Source: Clostridia bacterium
GTDB taxonomy: Bacteria > Bacillota > Peptococcia > DRI-13 > UBA5745
Assembly (NCBI GenBank): GCA_018436095.1
Contig: JAHDMJ010000018.1
Coordinates: 124,001-188,000 of the forward strand
Direction: 5' to 3'
Length of the DNA stretch: 64,000 nt
The notes beneath the pieces are model-generated. The model made no database searches. It saw only the letters and a program-made list of their open reading frames with translations, and was not told where the DNA came from. The position numbers were made by a program, and so were the translations under genes. Numbering within the stretch: the stretch's first letter is position 1; each line of letters opens with the position of its first letter. Below are positions 30,420 through 53,427 of the stretch, piece after piece.

Positions 30420-30612
30420 CTGGACAGATGAAGCGCGCAGGAAAGTAACCATATCAGGTTTGCCGAAGGAGTAACACTCTCAGGTGTCCCTCAGGGGATG
30501 AAGACTGTGCGCGGATGTGACTCTGGAGAAGCTCGATTATGAGTGCCGAAGGTGCAACACGGAATGCAATTCCGTTAATCTCTCAGGCAAAAGGACAGAG
30601 GCGAAACCGTTC
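30420..30612 (+). ncRNA. Glycine riboswitch (tandem, first aptamer divergent)
   Basis: The second aptamer is textbook: CTGGAGAAG, GTGCCGAAGGTGCAAC, then CTCTCAGGCAAAAGGACAGA (30580-30599). The first aptamer is less canonical but keeps GCCGAAGGAGTAAC and CTCTCAGGTGTCCC, and is closed by GCGCGCA...TGTGCGCG arms. The pair precedes a terminator and an alanine/glycine:cation symporter, a known target class for this riboswitch. Confidence 0.92.
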
Positions 30613-44746: not shown

Positions 44747-45958
44747 TCAGGCTACCTTAGGAATATGTAAATGTTTGCCGCAGCGGCCGGACTGAATCTT
44801 ACTGTGGAGTTTGTTAAGGTTAAAGGCTATGGCCAGCAGAAGGAGTTCCGTCTGAACATTTACCTGATCACGCATAAGAAAACGCCGAAAGCCCATGTCC
44901 TGTTTTGCTTTTCTTCTCATAAGCAGCCTGGACCAGGTGGCCCGCATGGCAGAGGTAGGCATCCTGGTTAGCATCATAGGGCATATTTTCCCGTTTACCG
45001 ATGTCGCTTTTATATTTTTTTGTCTTAGCCTGCTCATGGTTGGCCGGTTTAATGAAGGCCATTTGTCCGTTTTTCTCACACCAGGTATAGTTCTCTTCAC
45101 TTTCAAAGCCTGCGTCTGCTACCGGCTTGCGGTAGCCAAGAGGAAGGAGCTTTTCCAGCATAGGGATAAGGGTGTCTGTGTCATTGCGCATTTGGGAGAC
45201 CATTGCGCCTACGATGTACTCGGCGTCTACCGCCAGGGTAACATTGTAGCCGGGCTTAAGCTGGCCATTTCTCATGTGGTCTTCTTTCATCCGCATGAAG
45301 GTGGCGTCCCTGTCTGTCTTGGAAAAGCTATTTCGCTCACCAAAACTGTGGTTGTAGTCGTCATATTTTTTCTGACGGGCAAGATATTCTTCTGCGGTTT
45401 CGATGGCTTTCTGTAAAGGGGTTTTTCGTTTCCCTTTACCTTGAACAAATGGCTTCGTCCCCTTTTGGGCATACAGCTTTTTCCGTAGTTTTTTCAGGTC
45501 TTTGCTGCGGATTTTTTCTCCGCCATAAAACCCTATCCCCAATTGCCCGGCCAGCTTGGGCAGCTCTGCCTTCATTTTTTCCTGCATTTTGGCCTCGTTT
45601 TTTTGGGTAGACTTTTTCCACATAAAAAGCTGTAGCGGTTCGCATTTGCCTCAAGCTTCGTTCCGTCAATAAAAGCCTGTTCCAGTGACAGTTCCCCGGC
45701 ATCGGCCAAGAGTTTTGTCAGTTGAGCAAACAACTCTTGCACCACACCGGTTAGGCGTTGGCTGCAAAAGCGGGCGATTGTTGCGTGGTCGGGTGCGCGT
45801 TCCCGGCCCAGAAGGTACATGAAATTGATGTCCCGAAGGCAGGCCTGCTCGATTTTCCGGCTGGAATACAGGCCATTCATGCGGCCATACACGATTATTT
45901 TGACAGATTCAACCGGCAGATATTTTCCTGCCGGTGTCTTTTTACGCCATTTTTCCAC
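44747..45958 (-). pseudogene. IS1182-family transposase, decayed
   Basis: Three fragments of one transposase lie in different frames. The N-side (45958 to ~45620) reads KIIVYGRMNGLYSSRKIEQA and DHATIARFCSQRL. A one-base slip in a T tract near 45615 shifts to WKKSTQKNEAKMQEK and the DDE region VADAGFESEENYTW. Near 44900 the frame breaks again and continues as DMGFRRFLMRDQVNVQTELLL to the C-terminal NLNKLHSKIQ. About 50 N-terminal codons and perhaps 100 internal codons before the last fragment are missing. Terminal inverted repeats were not found. Confidence 0.87.
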
Positions 45959-51620: not shown

Positions 51621-52346
51621 TTATTTTCCATTTACTTCGATTTGGCCCAGTACCTGGCCGATGCTTTCCTTGATCAGCAGTGATGCCCGGCGGTCGTGGG
51701 GCGTGGCGCTTTTGTTGATCAAAATCAAAGGGCCTTGATAAAACGCTAACAAGCCGGCAGCGGGATAGACGGAAAGGGAGGTGCCCCCGACGATGAGGAG
51801 GTCTGCCTGGCCCAGACAGGTTTCCGCCTGCCTCAGGATGTCGCTGTCCAAGGCTTCTTCATACAATACCACATCGGGCCGGATAATGCCGCCGCAGCAG
51901 CATCGGGGTATAGGAGTTCCGGCAGTAATCCCGTCCACTGCATAGGTTTTGCCGCAATCTATGCAATAGTTGCGCCATATGGAGCCGTGAAGCTCCAAAA
52001 CTCTTTTGGCTCCCGCAGCCTGATGCAAGCCGTCGATGTTTTGAGTAATCACTGCCGTCAACTGCCCGGCTTTCTCCAGCTCCGCCAACTTTTTATGAGC
52101 TGCGTTGGGTTTAGCAGTAAGAAATAGAACCTTGTCCCGATAAAATTCATAAAACTCTTCCGGATAAGCGGCAAAAAAGCTGTGACTTAAAATGTCTTCC
52201 GGCGGGTATTTGTATTTTTGATGGTACAGGCCATCGGGGCTGCGAAAATCAGGAATGCCGCTTTCCGTAGAGACGCCGGCGCCGCCAAAAAAAACGATAT
52301 GCTTGCTTTTGGCAATATAATCTTGCAATTGTTCTACCTGGTCCAT
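51621..52346 (-). CDS. NAD-dependent protein deacylase (SIR2 family)
   Basis: A 241-residue sirtuin that removes acyl groups from lysines with NAD. Signatures: GGAGVSTESGIPDFRS, TQNIDGLHQ, LELHGS with the catalytic His, and the VGGTSLSVYPAAGL loop. The zinc site is atypical but present: CIDC, then a run of three Cys in PRCCCGG. GAGAGGTGG precedes the ATG. Cytoplasmic; it is transcribed upstream of the stalk-domain gene. Confidence 0.92.
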   Translation of the reverse strand: MDQVEQLQDYIAKSKHIVFFGGAGVSTESGIPDFRSPDGLYHQKYKYPPEDILSHSFFAAYPEEFYEFYRDKVLFLTAKPNAAHKKLAELEKAGQLTAVITQNIDGLHQAAGAKRVLELHGSIWRNYCIDCGKTYAVDGITAGTPIPRCCCGGIIRPDVVLYEEALDSDILRQAETCLGQADLLIVGGTSLSVYPAAGLLAFYQGPLILINKSATPHDRRASLLIKESIGQVLGQIEVNGK

Positions 52347-52396
52347 AACCCACCTCTCCTTACGTATTTATCATTATTATAGCATATTTCTTCCAT

Positions 52397-52635
52397 CTGA
52401 TGGGATATTCACGACAAGAGCATGAGTAAACATTATGTAAACGAGAAGGAAGGTTTTGCAAAAAGGCCAAATCAGCTATGCTCACTCTCCGCCGGCCAAA
52501 TGTTGAAAGAAGCTTTTCTATATGGAAATTTAGCCGGCTGCAAATGTCGCTATAGCTGACATGGCCTTTTCTCCAGATTCCTTCCCCTAATGCTCACCGA
52601 TTGTTTACTCATGCTCTTGTCCTGATGGGATATTC
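52397..52635. mobile_element. 209-bp MITE-like hairpin with 14-bp flanking direct repeats
   Basis: GACAAGAGCATGAGTAAAC (52413-52431) is perfectly inverted at 52603-52621. CTGATGGGATATTC occurs directly at 52397-52410 and again at 52622-52635, so the unit appears inserted into, and to have duplicated, that 14-mer. The interior pairs along most of its length (GAAGGAA, AAAAGGCC and TCAGCTAT with their complements, then GCCGGC arms), so the element can fold as one long hairpin. It has no coding capacity. Confidence 0.85.
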
Positions 52636-52861
52636 GGCCGAAAGTCTTTTTGCGATCATATAAAAAAGCATTTATTTACCTCACTTTTTCTTAACCCTTG
52701 CTAAGGGTTGTGCCAGAATTGCCTGGCCTTAAATAATGGAAAAACCTAGAATAAAATTGTATGGCAATTTTTATTATAATAAGAAAAGTTTAGATTTCCA
52801 TATAAAAAAACAAAATAAAGTAATTAAATTTTAGTATAAAACAATTATTTATTTTCTTAGA

Positions 52862-52899
52862 TTGTGAATATTGACACAAACTCTACTTAATGTTATATT
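52862..52899 (+). promoter_or_regulatory. Hydrogenase operon promoter with Rex-like operator
   Basis: TTGACA (52871-52876) and TATATT (52894-52899) are 17 bases apart. TTGTGAATATTGACACAA (52862-52879) overlaps the -35. It keeps TTGTGAA and CACAA of the Rex consensus TTGTGAA-N4-TTCACAA with two changes. Rex senses the NADH/NAD ratio, which suits an NADH-linked hydrogenase. The 220 bases between the MITE and this site are AT-rich with no gene seen. Confidence 0.65.
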
Positions 52900-52935
52900 G
52901 CTCATAATAACAACCATGGGAAGGAGCCAAGGCAA

Positions 52936-53427
52936 ATGAGTCAGGTTTGTGATTATCGGAAGCTGGACGAAATTTTAGAGAAGCACCGGTATGATTCCGC
53001 CAGCATTATCGCTATTTTACAGGAAACTCAAGAAGAGTATCATTACCTGCCCCGGGAAGCTTTTGATTATTATGCCCAAAAGCTAAAAATGCCAATTGCT
53101 AAAGTCTTCAGTATCGCTACCTTTTATGAAAACTTCTCCCTGGAACCAAAAGGAAAATACGTGATTAAGGTTTGCGACGGTACAGCCTGTCATGTACGGA
53201 AATCCATACCCGTATTAGAGCGCCTGAGAAAAGAACTGGGCCTTTCGGAAGGCAAGGTGACTACGGACGATCAGCTATTTACTGTGGAGATCGTCTCCTG
53301 CTTAGGGGCCTGCGGTTTGGCGCCGGCCATCACGGTCAATGAAAAAGTTATCGGATTGTTGACTCCGGATAAAGCGGCAGAGATTTTAGCCGAGCTTAAG
53401 GAGGGTGAAAGCCATGCAAAAGCTTAA
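52936..53427 (+). CDS. hydC: Electron-bifurcating hydrogenase gamma subunit (NuoE-like)
   Basis: A 163-residue thioredoxin-like [2Fe-2S] protein of the 24-kDa/NuoE family. Its cluster ligands are CDGTACHVR and CLGACGLAP, in the C-x4-C...C-x3-C pattern. In trimeric bifurcating hydrogenases it relays electrons to the flavin subunit. AAGGAGCC lies before ATG 52936. It overlaps the next gene by 14 bases. Confidence 0.93.
   Translation: MSQVCDYRKLDEILEKHRYDSASIIAILQETQEEYHYLPREAFDYYAQKLKMPIAKVFSIATFYENFSLEPKGKYVIKVCDGTACHVRKSIPVLERLRKELGLSEGKVTTDDQLFTVEIVSCLGACGLAPAITVNEKVIGLLTPDKAAEILAELKEGESHAKA

Follow-up and report, generated by a model that had tools for sequence, protein, structure and literature searches.

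ERIC of the enterobacteria (127 bp) and the Yersinia repeat YPAL (168 bp) are described as small palindromic intergenic repeats (PMC2229807). According to the same description, ERIC is co-transcribed with its neighbors and its orientation matters, and both empty and filled sites are known for YPAL (PMC2229807). The bcr1 repeat of the Bacillus cereus group is portrayed as a group-specific dispersed repeat with a mobile character and a predicted conserved structure (PMC2267715). The element analyzed in this study lies within a window of 64,000 nt, by which we mean the whole stretch of DNA that was examined, and we conclude with high confidence that it is a MITE, i.e., a nonautonomous DNA transposon, whose family was found in one genus only. 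It resembles ERIC and YPAL, as they are characterized in the source above, in being a small palindromic intergenic repeat, a likeness of form. Unlike them, the family has target site duplications of about 11 bp and an asymmetric internal loop. The family also shares with the published picture of bcr1 a group-specific, dispersed, and mobile form, in a different host lineage. We take the duplication of bcr1 to be 5 bp long. Members of the IS4-type family, such as the IS231-related MITEs, produce duplications of roughly 10 to 13 bp, and the length of about 11 bp fits IS4-derived MITEs; the likeness here is one of duplication length.

Structure of the focal element

An exact 14-bp direct repeat, CTGATGGGATATTC, is found at window positions 52397-52410 and 52622-52635, in agreement with the first-pass annotation of this DNA. 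The arms at 52409-52432 and 52602-52625 are paired at 23 of 24 positions, and within them the inverted ends are perfect over 20 bp: the left terminal inverted repeat GACAAGAGCATGAGTAAACA (52413-52432, plus strand), which was assigned from the arm pairing and the family ends, is perfectly complementary to the right one (52602-52621, minus strand). The annotation had given perfect ends of 19 bp, which is right as to their perfection and one base short as to their length, and it had correctly placed two bases (AC) between the left direct repeat and the perfect arm. The MITE body (52411-52624; matched by the sequence profile R1 at 52412-52623) folds from end to end. The focal 239 nt have a folding energy of −90.1 kcal/mol compared with −56.6 ± 4.4 kcal/mol for shuffled sequences (z = −7.55), and 0 of 200 shuffles were as good, which bears out the earlier claim of folding along nearly the full length. 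The body is short (about 214 bp) and noncoding, containing no internal ORF of at least 80 amino acids.

The inner hairpin core (52466-52565, minus strand) is composed of stem 1, an asymmetric internal loop, and stem 2. It matched the structured model R2 with 73.3 bits on the minus strand and 23 bits on the plus strand. In the alignments of copies, one strand of the conserved internal loop is GCTCACTCTCCGC (52480-52492, plus strand; GCGGAGAGTGAGC on the minus strand), and the other strand of the loop lies at 52540-52551 on the plus strand, where the focal element is one base short of most aligned copies (minus strand, AGCGACATTTGC versus AGCGAACATTCGC).

Copies, ends, and target site duplications

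The first-pass annotation had suggested looking for further copies, and about 30 related loci were found in the own genome, 23 of them by profile R1 and 7 by their ends alone. The profile was made from 10 copies and applied at a threshold of E ≤ 0.01; it gave 33 matches at the 23 loci of the own genome (the weakest with E = 0.0096) and 13 matches at nine loci, two of these a tandem pair, in the sister species (G004). A DNA search gave 22 matches in the own genome, some copies being counted on both strands or piecewise, and the 20-bp end pattern matched there 24 times at up to three mismatches, compared with 0 times for the reversed pattern. The copies are dispersed and have the inverted ends CAGGACAAGAGCATGAGTAAACA in common. 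Measured from arm to arm, with the arms included, the 13 two-ended copies are 52 to 231 bp long. In the four smallest (52, 60, 66, and 86 bp), little or nothing of the interior is left, and the same shortened center is common to three copies in two species (L008, L107, and L051). One lone end in G004 (C6:17116) appears to be a genuine remnant. The single-end matches in G001 and G003 and one in G004 (C1:245105) were rejected as chance matches; they run into apparent gene starts and have no second end nearby.

The flanks of the 13 two-ended copies were compared left against right, within and between copies, with offsets of 0 to 4 on each side throughout. For all lengths between 9 and 13 bp, the two flanks of one copy matched each other better than permuted pairs did (p = 5e-5, the lowest value that 20,000 permutations allow), and the 13 copies as a set thus carry target site duplications. 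At 10 bp, six of the 13 copies beat all 156 cross pairs, and the remaining seven are not outstanding singly. Perfect 11-bp repeats at equal offsets to the core flank both L051 on contig 13 of G004 (AGATAACAATA) and the focal copy (ATGGGATATTC). The left focal repeat (52400-52410) lies within the 14-bp repeat at 52397-52410, and the right one (52625-52635) was assigned from the direct-repeat match and the permutation test; the flanking repeat of L014 matches at 10 of 11 positions. The family end reads CAGGACAAGAG and reaches the CTG at 52622-52624 in the focal right repeat, which therefore belongs to the element, and the target duplication is therefore better put at about 11 bp than at 14 bp. 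The 14 bp of the earlier note are correct as the length of the repeat and not as that of the target duplication; comparison of the copies shows that they are made up of 11 bp and of three further bases that match the end of the element itself.

Besides the family, both species carry other palindromic intergenic inserts of different sequence, among them L062 (reverse strand, ~2270-2730), L105, L032, and L150. Some of these have pieces such as GTGCAAAATTTACG or CGAGGTTGTG in common, and one of them occupies a site where the sister species carries a member of the focal MITE family. At one site in G004 (L130 and L138, C44:330265-330550), the core of the focal family is partly duplicated in tandem.

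Host range and autonomous partner

The DNA search detected the family in 2 of 100 genomes, the own genome being one of them, and profile R1 detected it in 2 of 12. The structured model R2 gave matches in 2 of 9 genomes and, in a search of the class, in 2 of 46. In every search the positive genomes were the same two, the own genome and G004, which represent two species of one genus. The best 7 candidates per genome were considered in most of the DNA search and the best 150 or fewer in the later searches, and three same-genus genomes are only 80 to 85% complete; weak copies may therefore have escaped detection. The same copies are present in "MAG: Clostridia bacterium isolate SM1-B15.1," which is the same genome as G004, with matches in 3 of 12 stretches. 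One end also occurs in the nine remaining genome stretches and in 19 viral ones, none of which has an inverted second end at up to five mismatches, and the scan of viral contigs for the loop motif gave 0 stretches.

An autonomous element with the same ends, which the first-pass annotation had proposed to look for, was not found: neither the own genome nor any of 13 relatives contains a long-spaced pair of family ends. Such a partner is usual for a MITE and does not strictly define one. DDE_Tnp_1 gave a single match in the own genome, at window positions 44868-45958 on the minus strand, over two overlapping ORFs that we take to be IS1182-like. These ORFs were considered as the partner and rejected, having no family end nearby. 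The transposase search, which covered DDE_Tnp_1 only, gave no match in G004.

Genomic context and empty sites

The focal copy is located between a sirtuin gene (51621-52346, minus strand) and a hydrogenase operon that begins at 52936 on the plus strand, the names being read from the translations; its position in the earlier note was correct. The sirtuin start is about 65 bp away, with the copy on its upstream side. Toward the hydrogenase operon, the copy is followed after more than 230 bp by a promoter-like site, TTGACA-17-TATATT (52871-52899), which precedes the operon and is also present in the sister species. At these distances, the focal copy is unlikely to have a large effect on the hydrogenase. 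Immediately beyond the left duplication, the minus strand carries TGCTATAAT at 52376-52384, whose counterpart in the sister species is TGCTATACT. Judged from its sequence, it could serve the sirtuin gene, with a weak −35 part and no entry in the promoter scan. Elsewhere in the window, a glycine riboswitch aptamer (30513-30608, plus strand) scored above the gathering level.

The sister species keeps the gene order of sirtuin and hydrogenase, and its intergenic region lacks the focal element and holds an unrelated palindromic insert closer to the sirtuin gene. The pre-insertion 11-mer was not seen there because this intergenic region has diverged. Four further copies with ends in the own genome (L014, L003, L006, and L022) are absent from the sister species. 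Conversely, its copy L048 is absent from the own genome, where the site of L051 is taken by a different palindrome. All seven resolved sites, with the focal one counted, are thus without the element in the other species, a count that leaves out L031, L032, and six two-ended copies (L002, L004, L008, L012, L027, and L030). The comparison of empty sites proposed in the first-pass annotation therefore found the orthologous focal site empty in the sister species, and its view of a MITE with recent movement is backed by the copy number, the target duplications, and this empty site. The focal copy is young. The annotation had named a single-copy hairpin conserved in place as one of two findings that would speak against a MITE; this does not describe the focal copy and partly fits old end-less copies that are common to the two species.

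Inner hairpin core of the old copies

The old copies without transposon ends retain the inner hairpin. In the sense of the window minus strand, the order of the core is stem 1, AGCGAACATTCGCAG, stem 2, loop, stem 2′, GGAGAGTGAGC (or GAGAAGTGAGC), and stem 1′. Seven end-less copies from five independent sites in the two species, including the orthologous pairs L152/L132 and L146/L130, were aligned (alignment A3), and their pairing was scored on a structure drawn by hand on one sequence. Standard pairs fill 88.4% of the pair cells, compared with 71.4% in shuffles, both sides have changed in 19 of 27 pairs, and such changes occupy 36 cells, compared with 13.3 in shuffles. On each of five measures, all 500 shuffles fell short of the observed value, although related sequences can exceed such shuffles without selection. 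Slid controls were 30 to 52% paired. The poorest fits are L146, with 22 of 27 pairs, and L130, with 19 of 27.

L152 (~1515-1632) and L132 (~1500-1610) lie at a gene 3′ end and are identical at 175 of 180 positions of the intergenic flank and 296 of 330 positions of the gene flank. The arms of their stem 1, however, match at just 5 of 14 and 6 of 13 positions, and each copy still folds on itself (−52.3 and −73.5 kcal/mol, respectively). The stems of L146 and L130 remain similar at their shared site, and at the third site one side of the core is present in L050 and has been lost from its orthologue L011. Large stem turnover is thus seen at only one of the three sites common to both species. L050 (~1443-1558), the sister's copy at the L011 site, has about 44 extra nt in the core, at the 5′ loop strand. 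In the MITE ends, derived changes are shared by the two arms of one copy more often than expected, with 8 counted in 13 copies and 2.8 expected (p = 0.005).

The orientation of the copies was compared with that of their neighbors at 31 loci, the neighbors being longest-ORF guesses with trimmed starts and not curated genes. The copies were codirectional at 17 loci and opposed at 4. Leaving out one partner of each of three orthologous pairs, including L050 with its tied call, gives 28 independent sites. The named strand agrees with same-strand neighbors at 16 of these and opposes them at 3 (16/19, p = 0.004), and the other nine, the focal site included, are mixed and uninformative on orientation. 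Targeted insertion, loss of harmful orientations, and use as RNA would all give this bias.

Alternative explanations

It is conceivable, though we hold it only tentatively, that the family is mainly a structured RNA. The core hairpin on the window minus strand would then be a functional RNA of 3′-UTRs or intercistronic regions, spread by transposition and kept in the old copies by selection. The covariation in the seven old copies from five independent sites points in this direction, and so do the internal loop, with 15 of 26 columns of A3 invariant compared with 1 of 28 in stem 1, and the codirectional placement with tandem genes at 16 of 19 sites. In 19 of 20 copies, the fold of the named strand is also better than that of the opposite strand, but common ancestry accounts for part of this difference. 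Compensatory changes can, moreover, come from template switching, a process that by published description can both create hairpins and maintain them (PMC8794818). The counts of G-U versus A-C in the old copies (14 versus 8) do not show selection at the RNA level, and the turnover of L152/L132 is matched at neither of the other two shared sites. The focal copy itself has a shortened loop strand and sits between divergent genes. No Rfam family matched at the gathering level within the focal element; at low stringency, eight loci gave four subthreshold matches (E of 1.1 to 8.8), all outside the elements, and no copy was found outside the two species. Either template-switch repair or selection for an RNA hairpin could explain the paired stem changes and the orientation bias. 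A related proposal regards the MITE as the vehicle of a strand-specific RNA hairpin whose asymmetric internal loop is conserved: copies inserted behind stop codons would drop their ends and stay as RNA hairpins, and their stems could turn over fully with the pairing kept. We consider this rather unlikely; if true, a transposon would have given rise to an RNA class specific to this lineage.

It seems improbable that the core acts in both directions as an intrinsic terminator or attenuator. In favor of this, AAAAGGCC and GGCCTTTT are the typical boundaries of MITE-type cores, and 17 of the 21 loci with a same-strand upstream ORF start within 25 nt of its end. However, no T run lies behind the stem in the seven old copies of A3, the scan of 52300-52960, limited to loops of 3 to 8 bases, gave 0 terminator-like sites, and the focal copy is placed between two divergent gene starts. 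For a chance palindrome or a single-copy regulatory hairpin there is the hairpin itself and nothing else, and this explanation, to which we assign almost no weight, is refuted by the roughly 30 loci and by the presence and absence of copies between species.

Proposed history and significance

We therefore retain the interpretation as a MITE and suggest the following course of events. The family ends would have been recognized in trans by a DDE transposase that has since been lost or was not sampled, and insertion would have involved an 11-bp staggered cut. After insertion, copies may shrink at the center of the palindrome and lose their ends, and what can remain is the inner hairpin, whose two arms change jointly. 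This joint change would most likely arise from template switching between the arms during replication, and the persistence of the hairpin is perhaps aided by tolerance or by some mild use of it in transcripts at the 3′ ends of genes.

As a MITE, the element is ordinary, one more nonautonomous family in a little-studied genus of Clostridia. Its copies in two close species nevertheless form an age series, from intact copies with duplications to shared copies without ends and one shared site with replaced stems. With this series, selection and template switching could be weighed against each other as sources of compensatory change in hairpins within a compact system, which also bears on how a mobile palindrome may become an element of transcripts.
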